From a virus, in the IMG/VR virus record IMGVR_UViG_3300050821_003459, positions 1-36,873 of that record: 36,873 bases of DNA. One strand, 5' to 3'. How positions within the stretch are numbered: position 1 is the stretch's first letter; each line of letters opens with the position of its first letter. Both the position numbers and the translations under genes were made by a program. The notes beneath the pieces are model-generated. The model saw only the letters and a program-made list of their open reading frames with translations. It had not been told where the DNA came from and did no database searches. This document shows positions 393 to 32,113 of the stretch, in pieces.

Positions 393-944
393 ATGAATCG
401 CAGACAATTTACAGGCCATCTGGTAGCAGGTTCGCTGGGCGTTGCGCTCGGTGGAACCACTCTCACGATGTCGGGATGTAGCGCACTCAGCGAATTGGAA
501 ACTTGGGTTCCTGTCGGCCTCACTGCGTTCGACGGTATAGCGGCAATCGTGGATAGCGTATTCACCGCAGTTGCCACTACCGTAGACAATCTATGGGCCG
601 CTGTGCAGAACGCAATCAATCTCTACCAGCACTCTACTGACCCGCAGAACACGCGCCTTGACAAGATCATTGCCACGCTCGACGCGCTGTCGGGTGGCCT
701 CGCCCAAGCACTCGCGGCATTGCCCGTGAGTATTCCCGCTGCTGTGCTCTCCGCTGCCAAACTCGGGCTTTCGCTCTTAATCGCCACGCTCGTTAGCATT
801 CGGAATAAGTTGCAGCCCGTCCCCACTCCGGTAGCGATGGCCGCTGCGATTAGTGGCACTGCGCCAGCGAAATCAACGAAGGACTTCGTAAACAAGTTCA
901 ACGCGATCATGGCAGCGAATGGCCAAAGTTTGCGGGTGAAGTAA
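393..944 (+). CDS. Tat-type secreted lipoprotein, unknown function
   Basis: The start is fixed by a good ribosome site (AAGGAGA) eight bases upstream. The N-terminus has twin arginines (residues 3-4), a hydrophobic stretch and a lipobox-like MSGC with Cys29, so a Tat-exported, lipid-anchored protein is expected. The mature part is mostly alanine-, leucine- and valine-rich helix without catalytic motifs I recognise. Its stop overlaps the ATG of the next gene (TAATG), so the two are probably translationally coupled. Next to a cysteine peptidase and a wall hydrolase, it could act at the cell envelope (outer-membrane lysis factor, superinfection exclusion, or a partner of the peptidase). The role is inference; secretion is read from the sequence. 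Confidence 0.75.
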   Translation: MNRRQFTGHLVAGSLGVALGGTTLTMSGCSALSELETWVPVGLTAFDGIAAIVDSVFTAVATTVDNLWAAVQNAINLYQHSTDPQNTRLDKIIATLDALSGGLAQALAALPVSIPAAVLSAAKLGLSLLIATLVSIRNKLQPVPTPVAMAAAISGTAPAKSTKDFVNKFNAIMAANGQSLRVK

Positions 945-1705
945 TGCCCCTTCCACTCTCAAATGGAGGGCGGCGCTATGGTTTCCGTCCTTCCTTCGCT
1001 GACCCCACCATCCCGAAGTTCACGATGCAACTACCAGTCTCGCTCCCTCCACAGGTAGATTTGTCGCAGTGGCTAGGCCCTGTGAAAGATCAAGGAAGTC
1101 TTGGCGCATGTACTGCGTTCGCCGGTACTGGATATTTCGAGTATCTCCACCGACGCTTCAAGAACGCAACGCCCGTTTTCTCACCGTTGTTCCTCTACTA
1201 TAAAGAACGCGAGCACGATGGCGATTTGGGACAGGGCGACACGGGGAGTTTTGGCAGCACAGCGTTTTGGGTGCTTCACGATACCGGAGCCTGCCTCGAA
1301 AGCACCGACCCTTACGACCCCACGACATTCGAGAATGCACCAACGGACGCGCAACTTGCTGAGGCTGCGAAGTACAAAGTCGGAGCCATGCACACGGTTT
1401 CATCTGTGGACGACATCCGATCTTCTCTTGCTTCGCAGTATCCCGTGCTCATCGGCGTATCCATCTACGACAGTTTTGAGAATGGGGATTGGGGTAGTTC
1501 GTTCGTTATGCCAGCTCCAACTGGAACTCTCCTGGGCGGTCACGAAATCTACATCCACGGCTACGACGATTACGCTAAGCGATTCAACATCCGTAATTCG
1601 TGGAGCGCAACGTGGGGCAATAAGGGCAACTTCTGGGCGGATTATACCCAGCTTGAATCTATCCTGACGGAAGCCCGCATTTTTCATTTTGGAAAGCCTT
1701 GGTGA
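944..1705 (+). CDS. Papain-family (C1A) cysteine peptidase
   Basis: The 253-residue protein shows the papain triad. Gln50 and Cys56 lie in DQGSLGACTAF, matching the family's QGxCGSCWAF. His200 is in GGHEIYIHGY, and Asn218 is in RNSWSATWGNKG, matching NSWGxxWG. It lacks the long inhibitory propeptide of eukaryotic papains and has no evident signal peptide. Known relatives are thiol endopeptidases, some of them bacterial and viral. It overlaps the lipoprotein stop by one base and is followed four bases later by an Ig-like protein. A phage could use it to process virion proteins, attack host surface proteins or aid lysis; which one cannot be told from sequence. Family call is strong, target unknown. 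Confidence 0.9.
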   Translation: MPLPLSNGGRRYGFRPSFADPTIPKFTMQLPVSLPPQVDLSQWLGPVKDQGSLGACTAFAGTGYFEYLHRRFKNATPVFSPLFLYYKEREHDGDLGQGDTGSFGSTAFWVLHDTGACLESTDPYDPTTFENAPTDAQLAEAAKYKVGAMHTVSSVDDIRSSLASQYPVLIGVSIYDSFENGDWGSSFVMPAPTGTLLGGHEIYIHGYDDYAKRFNIRNSWSATWGNKGNFWADYTQLESILTEARIFHFGKPW

Positions 1706-2806: not shown

Positions 2807-3050
2807 ACCATCCTCGCTCGTAGGCTCCTATCCATAACATCCCCGCGCTAAACGTCAAGTATGGGCTTGCATCTCTGAACGTCTCCCACTCGGGGAACAG
2901 GATAAGCAGAAAGTCAATTAGAGCCAATATGAGCCATGCGATACCAAGCGTGCTTACTGTGTTGTTCTTCGCGCAAAACACCGCCAGCGTGCCAAGGATT
3001 AAGCGGGCAAGGCCATCTAGGGCGATGCTTAGGAGTTCCGGGAATCCCAT
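2772..3050 (-). CDS. Small membrane protein, 92 aa
   Basis: The protein has about three hydrophobic segments (roughly residues 5-27, 33-53 and 66-78) and a charged C-terminus. It overlaps the next upstream gene by 22 bases and runs into the end of the wall hydrolase from the other strand. A membrane role such as holin or antiholin is possible because of the lysis-type neighbours, but no family is recognised. It ends in TAG. Confidence 0.6.
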   Translation of the reverse strand: MGFPELLSIALDGLARLILGTLAVFCAKNNTVSTLGIAWLILALIDFLLILFPEWETFRDASPYLTFSAGMLWIGAYERGWFKGRQSQGQMG

Positions 3051-3292
3051 ATCACCCCTGCGAACGTCAGGAAAATAAGGGCCATGAATCCATCGAAGAC
3101 GATGGTGTACAGGCGATGCTCCCAGCCTACGATGTGGCTCATCGCCTCAAGCGTGAATGTCGCAATCAGTTCGATGTCGAGGTACAGCCTAACCGCCCGA
3201 CTGTGATTCGGGGCCGTCCGCGCCCAGATTATCGCGCTCAGCAGCAGGACTGACAGACCATACGTAGCGAGTGCCGACCATAAAATATCCAT
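3029..3292 (-). CDS. Small membrane protein, 87 aa
   Basis: ATG start with GGAG about ten bases upstream. Three hydrophobic stretches (about residues 6-24, 38-52 and 62-82) alternate with basic and acidic loops. It overlaps the following gene by 22 bases, which suggests coupled translation. It resembles phage membrane proteins in layout but has no recognisable motif. Holin-like or exclusion-type functions are both open. Confidence 0.6.
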   Translation of the reverse strand: MDILWSALATYGLSVLLLSAIIWARTAPNHSRAVRLYLDIELIATFTLEAMSHIVGWEHRLYTIVFDGFMALIFLTFAGVIWDSRNS

Positions 3293-3404
3293 TCGCGTTC
3301 TCCGCTGTGGCGGTCAGGCCGTCGCCTTCACAAGTGGCTACAGAAGGATTCGCAACTGTGCAAACTGTGTCGTACACTTCTCCGGGCCGATGTCCACCGC
3401 TCAT
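3189..3404 (-). CDS. Possible small ORF overlapping membrane gene
   Basis: This 71-residue frame begins one base after the stop of the next upstream gene and has GAGG at a workable distance, so initiation is plausible. About half of it overlaps the membrane gene ending at 3029 in another frame. It fills the otherwise empty 3293-3405 interval. The protein has two Cys and no known motif. It may be real or merely the space holding the next gene's leader. Confidence 0.3.
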   Translation of the reverse strand: MSGGHRPGEVYDTVCTVANPSVATCEGDGLTATAENANGYFMVGTRYVWSVSPAAERDNLGADGPESQSGG

Positions 3405-3405
3405 G

Positions 3406-3642
3406 TCAATACCCTCGCCTTCCGTTGATTCGTTTCAACTCACCTTTCACTTCACCAATATCGCTCACCATTTGAAGTTGTCCGTTGGCAATTCCGTCGA
3501 TCCGACCGTGCATACTTTCTACTTTGTCCTCGACCCCTTTAATTCGTGCCGCTAAAGTCCCCGCCGCAAAAATATAACGGAATATCCCAATGAACCATCC
3601 GAGTAGCGCTACCCCCCATGCGGTCTTTTCGTGCGGGTTCAC
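3406..3642 (-). CDS. Small membrane protein with helical tail
   Basis: GTG start with GGAGG five bases upstream. One hydrophobic segment (about residues 9-32) is followed by a charged helix with heptad-like spacing (about 35-75). The layout, one membrane anchor and a coiled helix, recalls phage inner spanins and membrane-anchored coiled-coil proteins. It stands ten bases after the stop of the next upstream gene, whose product has a similar plan. Confidence 0.6.
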   Translation of the reverse strand: MNPHEKTAWGVALLGWFIGIFRYIFAAGTLAARIKGVEDKVESMHGRIDGIANGQLQMVSDIGEVKGELKRINGRRGY

Positions 3643-3652
3643 TGGGCCTCCA

Positions 3653-3952
3653 CTAATGTCCAGGCGCAGTCACCGGATGCGCCGTAACCCCCACTTTCGC
3701 TGCGATGCCCGCAATGTCAACGCTCTGCTGATTCACGCTCTGGCGTAGAGCGGATATTTCGCTGGTCTGCGAATCAATTTTTTGCTGGAGTTCGAGAATG
3801 CGGAGGTTGAGTTCTTTTTCCTGTACGGTATCGGTAGGTGGGGTTGGTGTGCGAAGTACTTGCACGCCCATCCCGAGAAGGACGCTCAGGGCGGCTATCG
3901 CCAGCCACTTCCATAGTTCTTGCTTGCCGTTCTTCCCGTTGGGTTCGCTCAT
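3653..3952 (-). CDS. Membrane-anchored coiled-coil protein (spanin-like)
   Basis: The first 13 residues are polar, residues 14-34 form one hydrophobic helix, and residues 43-80 are a coiled coil with leucine, isoleucine and valine at heptad positions. The short Pro/Thr-rich linker after the membrane helix would place the coil outside the inner membrane, the design of i-spanins (Rz-type). No outer-spanin lipoprotein is nested in it; the lipoprotein at 393-944 is a possible but unproven partner. Function is inferred from architecture only. It ends in TAG. Confidence 0.6.
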   Translation of the reverse strand: MSEPNGKNGKQELWKWLAIAALSVLLGMGVQVLRTPTPPTDTVQEKELNLRILELQQKIDSQTSEISALRQSVNQQSVDIAGIAAKVGVTAHPVTAPGH

Positions 3953-3969
3953 TTAGGTTTAGTGTACGG

Positions 3970-4317
3970 TTAACTGCCCTGTGGAGCAACAGGATTTTTG
4001 TCAGGCTCCCTTGCTTTCGTAATCTGGTGCAGGGTTTCTTGCATTGCGTATTGGTTCAACCAGTGCCAAATGCCGAGAGCGAGAACGCTAAGGGTGGGGA
4101 TCTGGAGCACAAGCTGGTGCCCTCCATCCGTGCTAGGCGTCCATGTGTAGTGGATACCAATGGAAACGGCGAACGCAACGAACATGCTGGCTCCGCGATT
4201 AATCCACGTCCAGTCCTTTTGCAGCAGTGGAAACCATTTCGCAGACTTGAGTTTGTTGATGACGTACACCACGATTGCCGCCGATGTGAAGTGAGTTACC
4301 CCGATACTTGCGTCCAT
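3970..4317 (-). CDS. Holin-like membrane protein
   Basis: A very strong ribosome site (GAGGAGG) precedes the ATG. The 115-residue protein has three hydrophobic segments (about residues 5-20, 42-58 and 70-88) and a polar C-terminus, a layout shared by many phage holins. It is the best-expressed-looking gene of the small membrane cluster and lies near the SleB-like hydrolase. No family motif was recognised, so holin is a position-and-topology inference. Confidence 0.6.
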   Translation of the reverse strand: MDASIGVTHFTSAAIVVYVINKLKSAKWFPLLQKDWTWINRGASMFVAFAVSIGIHYTWTPSTDGGHQLVLQIPTLSVLALGIWHWLNQYAMQETLHQITKAREPDKNPVAPQGS

Positions 4318-4358
4318 CGCTTCCTCCTCAAAGGGCGGAAATAAATCCGCCCCCGGTC

Positions 4359-4607
4359 CTAGAAACTGCCCGTCCGCTTCAACGTGAGCAGGTCATCCCT
4401 TACCTCTGTGGATGAACCTGGCCAGTGAATCAGTTCTGCCTTTTCCAGCATCGCCCCGGCACGCTTCAAGGACCGCACGAACTCCCTTGCAACGCAGTCG
4501 GGACAGGAGGGTGAGCCGCAGAACTGCTGAATCTGGCCCCCATCCTTGATTTGCCTCTGGCAGCCGTGACCGCCTACCGCCGTTACTTCTACTCTGAATT
4601 GACCCAT
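4359..4607 (-). CDS. Small conserved Cys-rich phage protein
   Basis: A GAGGAG ribosome site precedes the ATG. The 82-residue protein has Cys and His clustered at residues 14-38, including GHGCQR and CGSPSCPDC, which looks like a metal-binding knuckle. A charged helix follows (about 41-60). I recognise the general pattern from phage accessory proteins but not its function. It is transcribed after the fibre genes and just before the membrane cluster, and it ends in TAG. Confidence 0.65.
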   Translation of the reverse strand: MGQFRVEVTAVGGHGCQRQIKDGGQIQQFCGSPSCPDCVAREFVRSLKRAGAMLEKAELIHWPGSSTEVRDDLLTLKRTGSF

Positions 4608-13089: not shown

Positions 13090-14358
13090 TCATTTCAGCA
13101 TCCCCGCCTCTCTCAACTGCCAGTAGCGCTTGCACGCCGCATCGCAAACATCTGTCCGATACTGGGCGTTGGGCACGCGCACTTCCTTTAGCATTTCGTA
13201 GGCTCCATCGAAGGCCGCGCCAGGTGTCTCGCCAACGGCAAGCGGAGACCCCACCCAGCCGCAGAGTCCCGCTGTTTCCAATTCATCCGACTCGCCGCGT
13301 CTCCTCACGTCGTAGATGTAGAAGCGGTCCAGATTCTTTTCGTAGAGTCCTTCGATGGGAACGCCTGCTTTATAGAACTTGTCCGGTAAGCCTTCGCACG
13401 GATACGGCGGCACGGAGAGTCGAACGGAGGCACAGAAGGGATGTTTCAAAGTCATTTCTGGTGGCCGCTCCTCGGATGCAACCGCGCAGAGAAAGTCGCC
13501 GAATCCCATCGGCAAAAGGCGTGTGAGTAAGGCCGTCGCATCGTAGCCGAAGCGCGGGGTGAACTCCAAGGCCCATGTTCCTTCTGCGTTCGTTATCGTG
13601 TTCAGGTCTATAGGACCCACGTAGCCGAGTTCCTGTAGTGGCTCCACGCATTTCTTTAGTCCCTTCTCGAATAGCGCGTTATCTTTGCGGGACATCCAGC
13701 ACAGCGATCCGCTGCATCCTGTGTTCGGTCCAAGTTCACCGTTGAGAAATTTCTTAGTTTCGATTGTGTGGTTTAGTGCGTAATAGCCGGTGGAATTGAT
13801 GTAAACTTCCGTGCTCGCTTCCACGCCTTCCACGAAATCCTGCAAGATGTACTCGCTCACCTTTGCCGAGCGGAACAGCACATCGAAGTACCGCACCATG
13901 TCTTCAGCGTCCCGCGCAACGTATGTCGTGGATTTGTCGTCCTGCTCACCGATGGGCTTAAAGACTAGCTGTTTGTTTCTTTTTTTGATATGGCGAATGC
14001 CATCGGCGGGATTGTCGAACGCTTCCCACGGTGCAACTAGAAGTCCGCAACGCTGCATGAAATCTAGTGCGTAAATGCGATCTTCTTCTAACAAGTCTGC
14101 GAGGGAACTATCGCCAATGGTGGGAACTTTTTCGCGGGCTTCGTCAGCATCCTTGCCCATGCCAGTCGCGTCGAATACGACGCACTCATATTCTTCTGCG
14201 GAATATGCTCCGTCACCCGGCATTATAGTGACGAGTCCTTTCAGCGCTTCGCCGTACCGCTCCTCACTTACCACGGCGCTGACATCGTGGCCTTCCTGCG
14301 CCATCCGCCAAGCCAGCCATGCGCCTTCCCCAAATTGGCTGGCGAGGCAGATTCGCAT
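13090..14358 (-). CDS. PurD-like ATP-grasp ligase
   Basis: The 422-residue protein has the plan of phosphoribosylamine-glycine ligase (GARS). It has a Rossmann-like N-terminus (MRICLASQFG; glycine turn), then an ATP-grasp core with LVFKPIGE (Lys134 near the nucleotide) and YILQDFVEGVEAS. GPNTGCSGSL (about 210-219) matches PurD's GPNTGGMG, and LEFTPRFG (264-271) holds the Glu/Arg of the metal site. PurD joins glycine to phosphoribosylamine with ATP. Divergence in the N- and C-terminal parts suggests a different substrate, perhaps a modifying ligase. A GAGG site sits before the ATG. It lies among fibre and injection genes, with no purine genes nearby. Confidence 0.8.
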   Translation of the reverse strand: MRICLASQFGEGAWLAWRMAQEGHDVSAVVSEERYGEALKGLVTIMPGDGAYSAEEYECVVFDATGMGKDADEAREKVPTIGDSSLADLLEEDRIYALDFMQRCGLLVAPWEAFDNPADGIRHIKKRNKQLVFKPIGEQDDKSTTYVARDAEDMVRYFDVLFRSAKVSEYILQDFVEGVEASTEVYINSTGYYALNHTIETKKFLNGELGPNTGCSGSLCWMSRKDNALFEKGLKKCVEPLQELGYVGPIDLNTITNAEGTWALEFTPRFGYDATALLTRLLPMGFGDFLCAVASEERPPEMTLKHPFCASVRLSVPPYPCEGLPDKFYKAGVPIEGLYEKNLDRFYIYDVRRRGESDELETAGLCGWVGSPLAVGETPGAAFDGAYEMLKEVRVPNAQYRTDVCDAACKRYWQLREAGMLK

Positions 14359-20589: not shown

Positions 20590-21855
20590 TCACACCACGT
20601 TCGGGGCGCACGTTATTGAATTAAGTGTAGTGTCCCACGTTGACCAATTCTTATCTTCAAAAGAGTATAGATAGACTCTCACAAAAGTTCCCAAGAGAAT
20701 GAAAAGCTGGTACGTCAGGTAGATGAATCCATTAACCAGTTGCGGAATGATATTGGCAAAAGGGATTGCAGTAGAGTTGGCAAGGTCCTTCATAATCGCG
20801 TCTCTCGACAATCCCCCGATTGGCTGGGCGCTCGTCACGCTTAAACTGTACACATTGTCTTGAGCTATGAAAGCGCAAGTTGGGCCGTATTGCGCTATTG
20901 ACCACGGAAAGATATTCCCGATACCATGTTCGCTGGCCCACATGTGGTCGAACTCCCACGGAGTTGCTGCGCTTCCCGTTGGAGTCATTTGCGTAATACC
21001 AAAATTTCGGAAGATGTATCCCGCGATTCCCAACATCGCTAGTCCTGTTATTTGGTCGGCAACGTCCAAGAATGGGTTGAACCCAGCGCTCGTATTTTGT
21101 GTCGGGTCCCACTGCAAGGGAAGTCCGTTCGCACTCCACCAGATCAAGTTTGGAAAACGGTAAATGTTTCCGTTCCCTTGATCTTTAATGCTCACGTTCG
21201 CCAAAAGCAGGGTGTTGTTTAGTTCTGAAAGATACCCGGCTCCTATGGCAATCGGCCCAATGATTGTTGGCCCTCCGGGAAGACCGCCGCCGACCGTAGG
21301 AGAATCTGTTAGCGAAATCCCGGCAATGGAATTGGAGATTGAACCGTCACCAAATGTATTCGTGAACACAGGTGCCGTTGTGATCCCATCCCAATACCCG
21401 ACAAACGGAGTGATTATCGGTCCACCGCCACCACCTCCAGGAGTCGGACCACGGGATATAAAACTGACATTGGTATAGTAGATTTTGTTTGCAAAAGCCC
21501 GATAACTCACAGGATTCGGGTCCATATTCCCAGGACCGGCAGCTCCCACAGTCGGCCAGTCTAAAAGTGTAGGATTGTACTGGTAGAGTGTCCCCCCTGC
21601 CCAGGCAACTAGGTGGTATGTTCCATTCGCATCCAAGAAAGTTGTCTGGCCGAGAACGCTGTTTCCTATTCCCGCACTCGGGAACGCTGTTAGTTTTGGA
21701 CGTGATCGCAACTCTTTGTTGCGAAGCATGAAGTTGTTAAAAGCTGGAGATTCTTTATCCGAGATTAGGGTTTCTGGTTCTTCTACGTTCAGGCCGCCGC
21801 TGAAGCCTTCATATTCCACGCTGAACGACCCATCCGATTTGATCTGTATGGCCAC
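20590..21855 (-). CDS. Tail hub protein, P22 gp10-like
   Basis: The N-terminus has GFSGGLNVEEPETLISDKES followed by a basic RNKELRSRPK segment. This is the 'GGLN...P..L...E....N' opening I associate with short-tail hub (DNA stabilisation) proteins. The remainder is beta-propeller-like with repeated Trp, Tyr and Asn turns and a glycine run near residue 145. The 421-residue length fits. Such proteins close the portal channel and carry fibres or needle. Family call moderate. Confidence 0.65.
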   Translation of the reverse strand: MAIQIKSDGSFSVEYEGFSGGLNVEEPETLISDKESPAFNNFMLRNKELRSRPKLTAFPSAGIGNSVLGQTTFLDANGTYHLVAWAGGTLYQYNPTLLDWPTVGAAGPGNMDPNPVSYRAFANKIYYTNVSFISRGPTPGGGGGGPIITPFVGYWDGITTAPVFTNTFGDGSISNSIAGISLTDSPTVGGGLPGGPTIIGPIAIGAGYLSELNNTLLLANVSIKDQGNGNIYRFPNLIWWSANGLPLQWDPTQNTSAGFNPFLDVADQITGLAMLGIAGYIFRNFGITQMTPTGSAATPWEFDHMWASEHGIGNIFPWSIAQYGPTCAFIAQDNVYSLSVTSAQPIGGLSRDAIMKDLANSTAIPFANIIPQLVNGFIYLTYQLFILLGTFVRVYLYSFEDKNWSTWDTTLNSITCAPNVV

Positions 21856-23967: not shown

Positions 23968-24927
23968 TTAAGGCCCGTAGCTGAAAAAACAGCCCCTCCA
24001 AGTGAGGGGAACGACACTGAATCTCTGTGTTGACTTGAACAGCAGAACCTCCGTCTTGAAATCATCGTCGGTCGAAGCCATGAGCGGTTCGCGGTCGTAA
24101 AAATTGAGCTGATGCCCTTCCTTGTCGGCGATTAGGCCCCAGCCGTTAGGCGAAGTCAGATAGTTCAGTTCCAATCCCTGCAAGTTTTCCGCGATGACCC
24201 AGTTCAGTTCGTTGTTGCTCGAACCGGGGACGCCAGGGGAGCCAAGTAGTTCGCGCACGTTGCGCCGCTGCTGGACGGTATGGATGAGCCACTTCGGTTT
24301 GACGTGAGCGGGGATGCCGCGATCATCTGGCTGCAAGGCAAGCATGGTGATTGCCTGTTGCAAAGAAGTCATGGTCAGGTCGGAGTCGGGTGACGGACGA
24401 TTGGGGTACGTGCCTGCAGAGTTGATGATGGTCGAAATGTTCGGCGCGATTGTGGTAGCTGTCGGCCCGCCCATCAAAGGCTGCGCTGTATTGAACAGCG
24501 ATACGCCGTTGGTTGTCGTGATGGTTGCGCCAAGATTGAACAGCGATGCGGCCACCGCTTCACGCGAGAACAGTGCGGACTTTGCGTGCGCCTTTGGCAC
24601 GTTGCGAATCAGGCCATACTTGTCGTCCGCAACCAGTTGCCGCGTGGCTTCGGTCAGTAAGCCATATTGAATGTGTACGGCCTTCTTCGTGCCGCCCTGC
24701 AAGATGCCATCCGACTGCGGGGGTGTGCCTTCCTGCATGATCGGCATAGGGCCAGTGCCCGAGAGTTCGTAGAGGATTTCGTAGGCATCCTCGCTCGTCA
24801 TCTCGTTGAGGTAGTGCGTGTACTGCGGCGCGTGCTCCTTGAGGTCGGTTGCCTGCCAAAAGATGTGCCGCAACCCCGGAGCAAGGAGTGGCGGAAACAT
24901 ATTTCTCGAAAGGAAACTTTGGGGCAC
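23968..24927 (-). CDS. Major capsid protein, HK97-fold-like
   Basis: GTG start with AGGAGG upstream. The 319-residue protein has an N-terminal helix region, the segment TKKAVHIQYGLLTEATRQLV typical of the E-loop and spine-helix part of Mu gpT-like/HK97-like capsid proteins, then SREAVAASLFNLG and LQQAITMLALQ helices, and a beta-rich C-terminus ending FSVVPLTWRGCFF. It lies after scaffold-like and decoration-like genes in the usual order. Family is by pattern; its identity as capsid is well supported by context. Confidence 0.8.
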   Translation of the reverse strand: MPQSFLSRNMFPPLLAPGLRHIFWQATDLKEHAPQYTHYLNEMTSEDAYEILYELSGTGPMPIMQEGTPPQSDGILQGGTKKAVHIQYGLLTEATRQLVADDKYGLIRNVPKAHAKSALFSREAVAASLFNLGATITTTNGVSLFNTAQPLMGGPTATTIAPNISTIINSAGTYPNRPSPDSDLTMTSLQQAITMLALQPDDRGIPAHVKPKWLIHTVQQRRNVRELLGSPGVPGSSNNELNWVIAENLQGLELNYLTSPNGWGLIADKEGHQLNFYDREPLMASTDDDFKTEVLLFKSTQRFSVVPLTWRGCFFSYGP

Positions 24928-27071: not shown

Positions 27072-27370
27072 TTTCTCTCCTTCCACTCTCGATACTCTTC
27101 CGCGAGGCCGATCAAATCCTCAAACGCTGAAAGTTTCCCTCGCATGAAATTTTGTTCCGCAACGTCTACTTCGTTCTTCGGAATCCCATGCCCGATTTCG
27201 TAACTGTACGAATCTACTTTATCCTGCAACTCCCCCAGGAGCACCGCCCACTCCGGGTAATGCAGGAGCGCCTCCACCCCCGAGTCTTTGGCGAATAACT
27301 TCGGCCATCTTTTGGACTGGGACGGGTCCACCGCCGCCGCTAGCGGGTGCTGGAGGTTTCTCTTGGCCAT
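27068..27370 (-). CDS. Small helical protein overlapping the portal gene
   Basis: The 100-residue protein begins inside the 3' end of the portal gene, sharing 152 bases. Its conserved-looking part, LHYPEWAVLLGELQDKVDSY, is helical and hydrophilic, and a second helix follows (residues 72-98). Similar 'ALL..PEWQ.LL..L' proteins follow portal genes in phages, which suggests that the long overlap is real. Possible role in portal assembly or regulation; unproven. Confidence 0.5.
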   Translation of the reverse strand: MAKRNLQHPLAAAVDPSQSKRWPKLFAKDSGVEALLHYPEWAVLLGELQDKVDSYSYEIGHGIPKNEVDVAEQNFMRGKLSAFEDLIGLAEEYREWKERK

Positions 27371-29213
27371 TTTTTACAAACTCCTCAATCTCTTTCAAGT
27401 CCGGGATAAATTCTTGAGGCTGTTCCGAAATTTGGAACTGGCGCACGATTTCCTGCATCAGTAAAGTTTTGGAAATGATTACGGACAACAGCCACTTTTT
27501 GTACGGGTCGGGAACAGTTGCGGTCATTAACGCCTGAATCTGCGAGCTGGTTTCCTTGATGTACCCACTGACCGCTTGGTTTAGGATAATCAGATTTTGC
27601 TTTGTGATTTCCCTATTCATGCTGGCAGTCGCAGCACGCATAGAGATTTTCAGGACACGCGACAGATGATCGTCGAGCGCAGCGGTCAGCAGCTTCTCGC
27701 TAAGGCCAGCAATTCTAGCCTTGCTGCCAAGGCCCATGAATCCGTAGAAGTCCACGCACAACCCACCAAGTTTTACGTGTGAGTGGCGGAAGTCGGATGT
27801 GCGGTGATCGTTGCGGGAATTTCCATCCTGCATTGTGGACAGCGTAGCCATTGCTCCGTACTGCCCTTTTTTGTTGGTGCCACCCGCTCCCGCCCCTCGA
27901 ACGGCTGGGTCAATTCCAGCCCTCATCTTCGCTTGCTGCATAATCAGTTCTTCGTTTTGCAGCGAAAGAGCACCGATGGCCGCGTTTGCCATTTCGTAGT
28001 GCTGGAACGTGTCTTTCTTGGCGGGGATGAACATGCCCGGCCACAATGTGAAGTTGCGGTCAATTGTTTTATTCTGATTGTCGAGCGTGTTTACGCCCAG
28101 CATTCCGTAGGTAATCGCGTCGTTACGTTGGTTCTTCTGTGTGGAGATTTCCTCTTGGAATCCCTGCAACATCTTTGCGAATCCCTTGCCCTTGATGGAC
28201 AGTCGTGTTTCTACGATAGGCACGCGATTCTTAGGGATGAAGTTGTAGACGCAGTTCAGCATCGTTTTCGAGTGCTGGTGAAACCAACAGATCAGGCGAT
28301 ACTTTTTCTGATTGTGCCACCACGAAAAATAGCACTCGTAGATGTCCCACTCGGCCATCGTGTTATCTTGCGAGTCCTGTAATCCCTTGCGTTGGTTCTC
28401 ACGGCGCTTGATGTCGGATGGTCCGAATCTGTCAGGGTTGCCGAGGATGGCTTTAATTTTCTCGGGGTCAAACTGGCCTTTGTGCGCCCGCTCCATCAGT
28501 TTCCGCTTTTTCAATGTGCAGCGGCGAATGATTGGATCGTTGTCCTCGAACGGAATATCCGGGTTGTCTATCAGGATGTCTTCAAAGGCGAGGTTGATTA
28601 CCTTCGGGCCAGCGTAGAGCGTCTCTGTACCAAAATGTGACTTCCCTTTTGTCCCGTTCTCGCTCGGCGGTTCGTATCCGGCATAGACGGCTTCAATGCG
28701 TTCCTCTGGAGCGACGCACACACGCGCCTTTCCGAGTCCTGCTGAATCCGTGAACCATTCGTTCTCTCGCGTGTACAGGTCCAATTCTTGTGGTTCGTAG
28801 GCTACGTAATCAAAAAAACTTTCCAGCGTTTTAGCTTTTTTGGAATTTTCCTTCGCTTCTTCCGGTTCGGCTTCCGTGAAGTACCGGAAGTTCATCGCTG
28901 GGGAGGTCCCCCAAATCAGTTGGAGAACGCGAGCGGATAAATCATCTACTGCTTCGGCAGCCAGGGGATGCACAAGATTGGAGCAATTCGGGAATGGCCA
29001 ACTCTTGTTCTTCTCGCGTGGCTCCGCGTCCAAGATGCGGCGCAACTCGGGAATTTCTTTGGTGTGGACGCGCTCCCATTTTTTCGAGAGTGCATCTACT
29101 TGCTTCTCAATCCACTTGGCGATGGCCTCTTGGACTTCACTGGGGAAGGAGATGGGGCGAGGCTCGAAACTGCGGGGCGGGCGTTCGGAGATCGTTGCGG
29201 AGGGTGTCGCCAT
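27219..29213 (-). CDS. Portal protein
   Basis: The 664-residue protein begins with a charged helix and has a region with TKEIPELRRIL and an aromatic WPFPNCSNL segment. The central part is beta and helix, and a Gly/Pro/Ala-rich C-terminus ends at GGVAG. Length, position after terminase and pattern fit large portals of P22-like or related short-tailed phages. The portal forms the dodecameric channel at one capsid vertex. It begins without a strong ribosome site. Confidence 0.7.
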   Translation of the reverse strand: MATPSATISERPPRSFEPRPISFPSEVQEAIAKWIEKQVDALSKKWERVHTKEIPELRRILDAEPREKNKSWPFPNCSNLVHPLAAEAVDDLSARVLQLIWGTSPAMNFRYFTEAEPEEAKENSKKAKTLESFFDYVAYEPQELDLYTRENEWFTDSAGLGKARVCVAPEERIEAVYAGYEPPSENGTKGKSHFGTETLYAGPKVINLAFEDILIDNPDIPFEDNDPIIRRCTLKKRKLMERAHKGQFDPEKIKAILGNPDRFGPSDIKRRENQRKGLQDSQDNTMAEWDIYECYFSWWHNQKKYRLICWFHQHSKTMLNCVYNFIPKNRVPIVETRLSIKGKGFAKMLQGFQEEISTQKNQRNDAITYGMLGVNTLDNQNKTIDRNFTLWPGMFIPAKKDTFQHYEMANAAIGALSLQNEELIMQQAKMRAGIDPAVRGAGAGGTNKKGQYGAMATLSTMQDGNSRNDHRTSDFRHSHVKLGGLCVDFYGFMGLGSKARIAGLSEKLLTAALDDHLSRVLKISMRAATASMNREITKQNLIILNQAVSGYIKETSSQIQALMTATVPDPYKKWLLSVIISKTLLMQEIVRQFQISEQPQEFIPDLKEIEEFVKNGQEKPPAPASGGGGPVPVQKMAEVIRQRLGGGGAPALPGVGGAPGGVAG

Positions 29214-29463: not shown

Positions 29464-31140
29464 TCAGTAACCTCCCGCTCCGCTACCACGATTTACGAAC
29501 GCTGTCTGTTGCTCTTGCAGGAACTTATCCGCCCCGTGGACCACTTCAATTGTCTCCGTGAAGTTCCCCAACACGTCAAGGGTGTCTACCGCTCCAGCCG
29601 GGTAGTTGTCGAGTTGATTCACGAATTTCTTCTGACTTTCATGCACCCACAGTTGCCGTCCGCGAAGAATCGGTTCCAGTGATTCAACTCTGTTTTTCAT
29701 AGCTGCCTGTGAATCATCATCGGGAAACGTGTTTACGTTTAGGCGGAACTTTGGCTCCTCGATGCGATCACGCTGCTGAATGTAAAATTCCAAGAGTTCC
29801 GATGCGAGGGTTCCCATCCAGAAGTTGTCGAGCTTCCACCGCTTCGCCGTCTTGTAAATCTCCTCCACTAAATCGGAGTACTTGGAATCCTCGGCCCACA
29901 ACGACATCAAGTAAATGCGCGTGCTCTCGGAGTCGTAGCCTACAATCCAAATTATGTGCTCGATACGATTTACTTTCTTCGCGTGGTTCGGGTCCACGAT
30001 CATGCGGAGAATCAATCCACCTGGTTGGAGGTCTTCAACCACTTCTCCATCTTGGACTTTGTGCTCCAAGAGCAAAATGTTCCGCAGGTCGTGTAGAGGC
30101 AAATCGGGACGCGATTGCTTAAACTTGAAGTAATTCAGGCACTTCACATCAAAGATTTTCTCCCACGGCAACGTGTGGAGGTTTAGGTAAAAGTGTTCGT
30201 AGTCGCCTTTCTGCCCTTCGCCAGCTTCCAGCCGCCCTTTCTCTTTGTGGAGTAGCTCGATAGTCCATTCGGTCGGCAGGATTGGCTTGCCTGCCGGATG
30301 CAACTTGCAGCAACCGCCCTCTGCGCTATGAGTCTCAAACTTAAACTCCGGTTGATATTTCTTAATCCATGCGTTCAGGTCGGCGTGTGCCCATGCGTTC
30401 CCGATTACCAGTTGGCGACGCGCTTGCTTTACCAGTGGGTCAAAGCGTGTTCCCACTTGCTTGTGCCAGTCAACCAAATCTCGGACGATACGCCCATCCC
30501 CTTTCAGCAACGATGTTTGCGCTTCACGGCCAAAGTTGTCGTCTTGAATTATTGAATTGACGTGGATTCCCTGCAACGCTTGGCCGACTCCGCGATACTC
30601 GAAATTCCCCGTTGTGGGGTCGCCACCCGGCAATCTCTTCTGAAATTTGTGATGGTTTGTCCATGTGCAGCCGCGGTCAGGAAGTACTTCCCGGAACGTG
30701 TGCATGAACACATCGTTGTTTTCATAGGCTTCGTCCACACTCTTTCCGATAGCTGCCGCTTGTTCCGCGATCTCATGGCAAACCAGCGTGCGGTGGTTTT
30801 GGTTGTGCATTGCACGCATGAAACGAATCCACGCATCCCCGCAGCCGAGTTGACGCATATTCTCTTCATCGCTATCTGAATACGGGAGCGCCCACCAAAT
30901 AGACAGCCCGATTCCGAGTGTCGTCTTGAAATGCGACATCGGAACTTCCATCACGGAAAATAGGTGTTCACTTTCTAAGGAACGGCAGAGGTACTTGTGG
31001 AGTGTGGTTAGGCGATTCTTCCCGAGCGTATATTTTGTGAACCAATAGAGGCTACCGAGGGAGTTGAGTCGGATAGCGCGAAAGTGTCCGTCGTAGTCGT
31101 CGGATATATCAGGAACGGGGAGGATTTTCCAGCGAGCCAT
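29464..31140 (-). CDS. terL: Terminase large subunit
   Basis: The protein (558 residues) has a Walker-A-like VPMSHFKTTL (66-75; Lys72) and the Walker-B-like IIQDD (197-201). The nuclease half has IVDPNHA (Asp383), a segment near 445-450 (ASELLEF) and VDTLDVL (Asp519/Asp522), matching the three-carboxylate RNase H-like site. TerL motors cut and package phage DNA into the prohead with ATP. No small-terminase gene is clear upstream. It follows the GroES-like gene by one base, an unusual partner for packaging genes. Confidence 0.85.
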   Translation of the reverse strand: MARWKILPVPDISDDYDGHFRAIRLNSLGSLYWFTKYTLGKNRLTTLHKYLCRSLESEHLFSVMEVPMSHFKTTLGIGLSIWWALPYSDSDEENMRQLGCGDAWIRFMRAMHNQNHRTLVCHEIAEQAAAIGKSVDEAYENNDVFMHTFREVLPDRGCTWTNHHKFQKRLPGGDPTTGNFEYRGVGQALQGIHVNSIIQDDNFGREAQTSLLKGDGRIVRDLVDWHKQVGTRFDPLVKQARRQLVIGNAWAHADLNAWIKKYQPEFKFETHSAEGGCCKLHPAGKPILPTEWTIELLHKEKGRLEAGEGQKGDYEHFYLNLHTLPWEKIFDVKCLNYFKFKQSRPDLPLHDLRNILLLEHKVQDGEVVEDLQPGGLILRMIVDPNHAKKVNRIEHIIWIVGYDSESTRIYLMSLWAEDSKYSDLVEEIYKTAKRWKLDNFWMGTLASELLEFYIQQRDRIEEPKFRLNVNTFPDDDSQAAMKNRVESLEPILRGRQLWVHESQKKFVNQLDNYPAGAVDTLDVLGNFTETIEVVHGADKFLQEQQTAFVNRGSGAGGY

Positions 31141-31141
31141 A

Positions 31142-31813
31142 TCAGGCGGCTGTGTGTAGTGCCGCGCTGCGCTTCACTGCGTTCTGTTCCAGTGATCCGT
31201 ACATGCGCGACAAAATTTCTGAATCACGTAGAATTACCAGCACCACTTCCACGGTCTTACCTTTTACCGTGACGGCAGACATGTCGTAGGCGTGCCCAGC
31301 GAACGATGGGTAAATCACTTTATCGCCGCGCTTTCGAGTGGGCAAAATTCCTTTCCCGCAACAGGTCGGACACAGAGAACTTGCCTTAGAAATAAATTCA
31401 ACCGTTCCCGTACCGTCGCACTGTAAACACTTCGTACCGACTAGTGGCCCGATACTCACGATGGTTCCTGTTGTTGGTCGGCCTTTTTCCTTTTCGGGAA
31501 TTACAATCGCTCCACCCTTGCCACCGCACGATGGGCAAACAACCCATCCCCTGCTATCGCACACCGAGCAACGCACGCGCAATGATTCATTGCCAGCTTT
31601 GGGGCGTGTGCCCATGCCGCTACATTCCCCGCACGGAATAGTAGAGACTTCGCGCCCTTCGTGCGTGTGCTTGTTTTCGTCCAAGCATGTTTGGCATTCG
31701 TAGCCGGAGCGGTAGGTGTCCTGCAAAATTATAAGGCGGTCATTGTCTGCCTCAAATCCCGCTTGGCCAATCCAGATCACGTTCTCGTCAAAGTTTGTTT
31801 CGATGTCAGGCAC
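31142..31813 (-). CDS. GroES-like co-chaperonin with DnaJ-type zinc-finger insertions
   Basis: The GTG start has GAGGG upstream. The GroES pattern is visible in pieces: DNDRLIIL (24-30) as the opening strand, GGAIVIPEKEKGRPTTGTIV (100-119) as the end of the mobile loop and next strand, KRGDKVIYPSFAGHAYD (161-177), and VEVVLVILRDSEILSRM (188-204) as the last strand. Into the mobile-loop position is inserted a run with four CxxC pairs (C40/C43, C61/C64, C82/C85, C93/C96). In the roof-loop position are two more (C129/C132, C148/C151). Several are CxxCxGxG as in DnaJ. Known GroES caps GroEL and DnaJ zinc fingers bind substrate. The fusion is inferred from the sequence. It sits directly before terminase. 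Confidence 0.75.
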   Translation of the reverse strand: MPDIETNFDENVIWIGQAGFEADNDRLIILQDTYRSGYECQTCLDENKHTHEGREVSTIPCGECSGMGTRPKAGNESLRVRCSVCDSRGWVVCPSCGGKGGAIVIPEKEKGRPTTGTIVSIGPLVGTKCLQCDGTGTVEFISKASSLCPTCCGKGILPTRKRGDKVIYPSFAGHAYDMSAVTVKGKTVEVVLVILRDSEILSRMYGSLEQNAVKRSAALHTAA

Positions 31814-31825
31814 GCTTTCCCTCCG

Positions 31826-32113
31826 TCACATCTTGATTGAGGATTCAATTATACTCGATGCCGCGTTCGGCCCCGCAAGCTTCATCACCATTACATGGTT
31901 GGAGCCTGGTGGTTGCTGGTTGAAGCCGACAGCGAGCTGCACAACGAGCGCATCCATCGTTACCCCTACTTGGTCTTTGTGGTTTTTAGGGATTCCGGTT
32001 ACGGCGATTCCGCCGTTCTGCACTTTCATGATCGAACCGATAACCCACTCGTTGCCAACTTTTACGTGCACCGCGTCACCTACTGTCAATTCATTCCCCA
32101 TCATGTCTCTCAC
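31826..32113 (-). CDS. Small SH3-like protein, 95 aa
   Basis: The GTG at 32113 overlaps the preceding TGA (GTGA) and has GGAGGTG seven bases upstream. The first 55 residues are beta-rich (ELTVGDAVHVKVGNEWVIG; GGIAVTGIPKN) like a KOW/SH3-type fold. The C-terminal part is helical and glycine-poor. It could bind DNA, RNA or protein. Not recognised. Confidence 0.55.
   Translation of the reverse strand: MRDMMGNELTVGDAVHVKVGNEWVIGSIMKVQNGGIAVTGIPKNHKDQVGVTMDALVVQLAVGFNQQPPGSNHVMVMKLAGPNAASSIIESSIKM

Follow-up and report, generated by a model that had tools for sequence, protein, structure and literature searches.

We identified a GroES-fold protein that carries a DnaJ-type module in its mobile loop. 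Its gene, which we name groZ, lies in a viral sequence from IMG/VR that is 36,873 bases long; this whole record is called the window below. The protein belongs to a family of 88 distinct proteins, all from viral contigs and all with Cys pairs in the mobile loop. A sequence-only reading of the window had held such a fusion to be undescribed, and as far as we searched this still stands: a literature search, in which subscription papers were little covered, turned up no GroES with a zinc domain in the mobile loop. The family suggests a phage-modified folding machine in uncultured phages.

Table. Features of the window, and two relatives with Cys pairs in the roof loop. Positions are those of the window unless a locus is named.
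Feature	Position	Strand	Details
groZ, GroES-fold protein	31142..31813	(-)	223 aa, GTG start; Pfam Cpn10; AlphaFold2
Ribosome-binding site GGAGGG	31819..31824	(-)	5 bases ahead of the groZ GTG
groZ residues 1-37: N-terminal extension and barrel strand 1, ending ...YRSG	31703..31813	(-)	AlphaFold2 model strands E13-15, E18-20, E26-31
groZ residues 38-99: mobile-loop DnaJ/BSD2-type zinc module (predicted), four CxxC	31517..31702	(-)	CxxC pairs at residues 40/43, 61/64, 82/85, 93/96
groZ residues 100-107 GGAIVIPE: mobile-loop GroEL-contact motif (by sequence)	31493..31516	(-)	
groZ residues 108-123: barrel strand TTGTIVSIGP	31445..31492	(-)	E115-121 in model
groZ residues 124-160: roof-loop insert, two CxxC	31334..31444	(-)	CxxC pairs at residues 129/132 and 148/151
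groZ residues 161-206: C-terminal barrel strands KRGDKVIYPSFAG...ILRDSEILSRMYG	31196..31333	(-)	Aligned to 3nx6 55-91; model strands E165-167, E174-181, E187-196, E202-204
groZ residues 207-223: tail past the GroES fold	31145..31195	(-)	pLDDT ~49-61 from 211 on
Terminase large subunit (terL)	29464..31140	(-)	phrog_38 2.7e-17
Portal-type head-tail protein	27219..29213	(-)	phrog_332 2.3e-6; after terL in relatives too
Small conserved protein upstream of groZ	31826..32113	(-)	phrog_2251 5.5e-5, function unknown
Papain-family cysteine protease	944-1705	(+)	Peptidase_C1 8.7e-14; phrog_16701 peptidase
ATP-grasp protein like PurD/GARS_A	13090-14358	(-)	2e-12; amid large late genes
Head protein candidates	23968-24927 and 20590-21855	(-)	Matches: phrog_133/371 (head maturation protease / major head protein); phrog_3287 virion structural protein
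Roof-CxxC relatives	L036 3124-3768; L130 3710-4480		Separate clades

The sequence-only reading had recognised GroES strands in groZ and, in the mobile loop, four CxxC pairs resembling a DnaJ zinc domain, and had proposed a profile search with both models. In the Pfam comparison, groZ scored 24.1 bits with Cpn10, above the cut-off of 21.1; with DnaJ_CXXCXGXG it reached 18.6 bits and stayed below the cut-off of 32.7. Over the family alignment, the Cpn10 profile matched 66/72 members and the DnaJ_CXXCXGXG profile 47/72 (E <= 0.01). The Pfam scan of groZ returned neither a J-domain match (E <= 10) nor any other DnaJ domain. Using phmmer, residues 100-123 were aligned to Xanthomonas GroES (3nx6) from its residue 22 on, and residues 156-192 to the C-terminal half of the same protein. 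A profile built from the 72 members gave Cpn20 (2e-15) and Cpn10s (6e-9 and weaker) in the PDB, the ten best matches all being Cpn20 or Cpn10 (2e-15 to 1.2e-5). Over the zinc module, the same profile matched the Cys-rich domain of E. coli DnaJ (1exk, 7.6e-4) and BSD2 (1.4e-3), in line with the DnaJ-like character claimed for the loop.

Structure prediction led to the same fold. The AlphaFold2 model from 72 alignment rows had a pLDDT of 83.3 and a pTM of 0.70, and a model from 8 rows was poor (pLDDT 48.9). In the former, both the barrel (mostly 91-97) and the zinc module (90-97) were confidently placed, the contact stretch at residues 101-110 was flexible (pLDDT ~68), and the roof insert was of low confidence (54-63 over most of it). 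In this model the flanking segments form a GroES barrel, whose absence would have refuted the sequence-only reading. The top VIA-align match was T4 gp31 taken from its GroEL complex (2cgt_O, Z 10.6, rmsd 3.1 over 80 residues), followed at ranks 2 to 16 by Cpn10, GroES, and Cpn20 chains, with Z of 7.5-9.7 for Cpn10/GroES; the gp31 entry 1g31 gave Z 9.3. BSD2 (6ekb) matched residues 36-104 at Z 5.7, and DnaJ 1exk was weak (Z 2.6, rmsd 7.6). With Foldseek, the whole model had one PDB match below 0.001, a GroES at rmsd 13.2, and eight matches below 0.001 in a viral library, six of them named GroES and two nameless. The eight Cys of the module lie in a BSD2-like hairpin and would make up two four-Cys sites, predicted to hold zinc.

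The insertion point could be read by comparison with plain phage Cpn10s. In the 87-aa protein of Bacteroides phage DAC19, the loop runs ...KSG-IIIPDSS..., and in a fecal phage protein cut by the contig end ...IGG-IIIPDSA..., while the groZ family reads ...[RK]SG-YEC-module-GKGG-IVxPDSS... at the same place. The module thus interrupts an otherwise ordinary mobile loop, just ahead of the GroEL-contact motif. Taken together, these data confirm that the groZ product has the GroES fold and that its mobile loop harbours a module of DnaJ type.

Scans of viral contigs yielded 71 distinct proteins, which were aligned with the window protein to give 72 rows. Four CxxC pairs were counted in 49 of these, three in 10, and two in 13; adding the members from the terminase scan described below brought the numbers to 65, 10, and 13 among 88 proteins. 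Counted by Cys, 79 of the 88 carry eight or more and the remaining nine precisely four, with none between. What the four-Cys forms retain are the two outermost CxxC pairs. Since in DnaJ a single zinc is bound jointly by the outermost pairs, loss of the inner hairpin in these forms would take away exactly one site. On a tree of the 88 proteins, switches between two CxxC and a higher number occur 8 times, on several branches; it is a quick tree, whose change counts cannot separate gain from loss. It omits duplicates, the cut entries L113, L143, and L002, L003, which is the window itself, and the non-members L030 and L031.

Conservation extended well beyond the Cys pairs. Position 103, the first contact position, is I, L, or V in 88/88 proteins and position 106 is P in 76/88; G116, S120, and G122 are invariant (88/88). 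A strict five-position contact motif is present in 77/88, window protein included, and fails in 11/88. In all 13 gene pairs compared (Nei-Gojobori), pN was lower than pS, with pN/pS of 0.09-0.52 for the whole gene and of 0 to 0.58 for the module alone, these ratios being rough owing to synonymous-site saturation in many of the pairs. Purifying selection acts on barrel and module alike. Conservation, selection, and fold rule out a chance run of CxxC in an unrelated open reading frame, and the presence of the gene in many contigs rules out a single odd fusion or an assembly error.

Some relatives had been found by a pattern that contained the first CxxC, and others by patterns that drew on the module or on the N-terminal part. 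The invariance of the pattern letters in those relatives is thus partly by construction. This bears also on S36 and G37, which are invariant in the 72-row alignment and lie in a stretch included in the search patterns. Since an earlier pattern contained the first CxxC, we used the terminase as the query instead, which made the control free of this bias. Among the best 80 of 482 terminase matches, a groZ relative was found at 62/80 loci, always upstream and on the same strand, and where at least 2 kb of upstream sequence was available, 51/53 loci encoded one; L145, one of the two exceptions, shares its contig with L057, where the gene stands elsewhere. In this set of the best 80, CxxC pairs were present in all 60 uncut proteins, L113 and L143 being cut by contig ends. 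The automatic count took 53/62 control proteins and found four pairs in 49 and two in 4, the latter entries (L163-L166) being one single protein. The other nine were the two end-cut ones and seven in which four mobile-loop CxxC were seen by eye.

Searches outside the viral contigs gave little. A tblastn search of phages with the window protein returned no convincing family member, and searches with other members returned nothing or weak hits; those inspected were plain Cpn10s (L167, L168) or CxxC-rich proteins without a GroES part recognisable by eye (L095, L169). Among these phage hits, we found no member from a cultured phage. A plasmid search with one family member found nothing, and the single match in a genome scan with an alignment of family members was an ordinary DnaJ from a Frankiaceae MAG (L031). 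Incidentally, L169 (275-1441) is a protein from a huge phage (642 kb record) with a long C-terminal run of CxxCxGxG-like repeats. L030 (~2957-4441), a different phage protein of ~490 aa, is rich in CxxCxGxG repeats but has, by eye, no GroES part.

The roof loop told a different story from the mobile loop. The sequence-only reading had placed zinc fingers in both loops. Judged by CxxC pairs, this holds for the window protein, whose roof stretch has 40 residues and two CxxC, and does not hold for the family. The roof stretch is just 7-15 residues long in 82/88 proteins, and roof CxxC pairs occur in 3/88, namely the window protein, L036 (same record as L123), and L130. These three fall in separate clades whose sisters lack the insert, corresponding to three changes on the tree. 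We therefore rejected zinc inserts in both loops as a family property; the family-defining feature is the mobile-loop module only, and the roof insert is rare. Roof inserts of another kind were seen in L071, L076, and L092, with 36-47 residues, no Cys pairs, and many charged and aromatic residues.

We then considered the genomic context. In the window, a single base separates the groZ stop from the terL start, and a PHROGs search of ten further open reading frames of the window gave no match. A relative of the small phrog_2251-type gene stood directly upstream of groZ in 10/20 loci searched. A terminase was found downstream on the same strand in 45/71 loci, and all 45 match phrog_38; the count used a terminase-sized open reading frame, which in L036, L041, and L042 was not the first long one downstream. 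In the other 26/71 loci, the nearest long upstream gene encodes a DUF3987 ATPase in 23 cases and a DNA polymerase A in 3, and most of the long genes downstream lie on the opposite strand. Of these, 24 form one clade (SH-aLRT 99), and the rest are the long branches L029 and L057. Capsid or terminase proteins, proposed as clients in the sequence-only reading, fit the 45 loci upstream of terL and do not fit the other 26, and since these lie beside replication genes, a function restricted to head assembly is not supported across the family. We also noticed terminases with long internal insertions in L010 (2456-5194) and L026 (1811-4237), with open reading frames of 913 and 809 aa, and in L148 (5001-7442, a 2,442-base match); these are possibly inteins or intron-borne genes.

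A phage-encoded GroEL partner was searched for, and no Cpn60 gene was found in 53 records (21 + 32), with the control positive in 14/14 reference genomes. Because the records are linear and possibly fragments, this absence is weak evidence. In the same records, a match passed the Cpn10 cut-off in 21/21 and in 21/32 further ones, with at most one good match each; G008 and G039 each gave a further, weak match that is interrupted by stops. Two of the 32 gave no Cpn10 match at E <= 0.1 despite holding family members.

What follows on zinc, ring formation, GroEL binding, and client handling we infer from the computed fold and its conservation. Our preferred reading, to which we give a probability of roughly 60%, is that groZ is a phage co-chaperonin that stands in for host GroES on host GroEL and bears a holdase-type zinc hairpin. 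What the computation shows is a GroES barrel, a roof loop reduced to about 8 residues in most relatives, a kept GroEL-contact motif, and a DnaJ/BSD2-type hairpin inserted right before it. Replacement of the host lid would fit both the conserved contact motif and the lack of a GroEL gene in the phage records. The subunits would form a heptamer and dock on GroEL via G-x-[ILV]-V-[IV]-P. Each mobile loop would bind two zinc ions, and the window protein, its roof insert counted, three per subunit. Seven zinc hairpins would then be ringed at the GroEL rim. In human Cpn10, peptides inserted in the mobile loop can spare the heptamer given suitable linkers, according to the accessible text of PMC5118791.

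Where the hairpins point can be approached by volume. A protein takes up 1.21 cubic angstroms per dalton. By our own arithmetic, seven modules of 62 residues would occupy ~58,000 cubic angstroms, that is, ~30% of a chamber of 194,000 cubic angstroms (value from the accessible part of PMC6318259). Because they would fill this much of the chamber if placed inside, the hairpins probably point outwards. They might act as a built-in holdase, grabbing phage proteins ahead of encapsulation, or alternatively keep released subunits until assembly, as BSD2 does for Rubisco. Such client holding would be by analogy with BSD2 and ZnJ2, DnaJ-type zinc domains that lack a J-domain and work as chaperones, as stated in the accessible parts of PMC5859369 and PMC5818400, respectively. 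More tentatively, groZ could be lid and assembly factor in one, its rim hairpins catching subunits as they leave or approach; in three clades, the window's among them, the roof, which is otherwise open, holds a second zinc-type knuckle that would perhaps close or gate the dome. If this possibility were true, folding and post-chaperonin assembly, which chloroplasts divide between Cpn20 and BSD2, would be joined in one ring.

The main rival, which we consider somewhat unlikely, retains the GroEL lid and makes the hairpin a mere device to stiffen or position the mobile loop, which would adjust how tightly or selectively it binds host GroEL, with no client contact. The module does lie directly ahead of the contact motif, and the mobile loop of gp31 is likewise longer, 22 vs 16 residues (PMC6318259, accessible part). 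The change from two zinc sites to one, seen on several branches (4 Cys in 9/88), is also easier to accept for a spacer than for a client surface. However, residues 101-110 remain flexible in the model, so that the loop is not obviously stiffened, and proteins with the DnaJ/BSD2 fold typically bind clients.

The region upstream of terL, where groZ is found in 45/71 loci, is a common place for the small terminase gene, and this position could accordingly suggest a nucleic-acid or packaging factor, that is, a zinc-finger ring of GroES fold that replaces or aids the small terminase. The zinc module is in part like anti-TRAP and Q-like antiterminators, with 4/72 members matching each of two Q-like PHROGs. 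This is nevertheless improbable, as the Cpn10 and BSD2 matches outscore the antiterminator ones, the gene follows replication genes in 26/71 loci, and a packaging ring would not need the GroEL-contact motif that has been retained. We regard as a shade less probable still a redox or zinc sensor, in which oxidation would free the zinc and toggle the lid in an Hsp33-like manner: the accessible parts of PMC4428491 and PMC5818400 describe thiol-linked activity of DnaJ and ZnJ2 zinc domains in some assays, but Cys-deficient ZnJ2 still held clients (PMC5818400, accessible part) and nothing specific in the groZ sequence points this way. Least probable of all is an anti-host inhibitor that binds GroEL or host GroES, favouring phage proteins or blocking defence, since the retained motif and the lack of a GroEL gene in the 53 records would suit it, but the full barrel and the purifying selection on barrel and module suit a working lid at least equally, and we saw no sign of hybrid rings.

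Returning to the co-chaperonin with a holdase-type hairpin, a conserved family that has a whole zinc domain built in beside an unbroken contact motif suggests that added functions can be loaded onto the GroEL lid. The family offers a testable case of viruses retuning the folding machine of their host, and it could serve as a natural scaffold when domains are to be fixed onto a chaperonin lid.

Among chaperone contacts, the mobile loop of GroES has been studied in great detail, and to our knowledge it is short and flexible in the known lids. GroES/Cpn10 and chloroplast Cpn20 share with groZ the barrel, the contact motif, and the strand order; unlike groZ, they have a mobile loop without insert. 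Helicobacter HspA is a GroES with a metal-binding histidine-rich tail, and thus resembles groZ, for which an extra metal site is predicted; the site stands at the C-terminus in HspA and would lie in the mobile loop in groZ. The viral chaperonins reported from soil are GroEL-like, the accessible part of PMC8390657 mentioning neither GroES nor zinc. DnaJ, a class I Hsp40, has CxxCxGxG repeats like those of groZ, which is however without the J-domain. T4 gp31 is a phage lid of the GroES fold, as groZ is predicted to be, and was the top structural match of groZ; the mobile loop of gp31 is not known to bear a zinc module. The roof loops of GroES are missing from gp31, whose mobile loop is given as 22 residues (PMC6318259, accessible part). 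Most groZ relatives have a short roof stretch, and the window protein, unlike gp31, has a zinc-type roof insert. Finally, BSD2 and ZnJ2 have the four-CxxC hairpin of the groZ module; they are free-standing proteins, BSD2 working after the chaperonin (accessible part of PMC5859369), whereas in groZ the module is built into the putative chaperonin lid.
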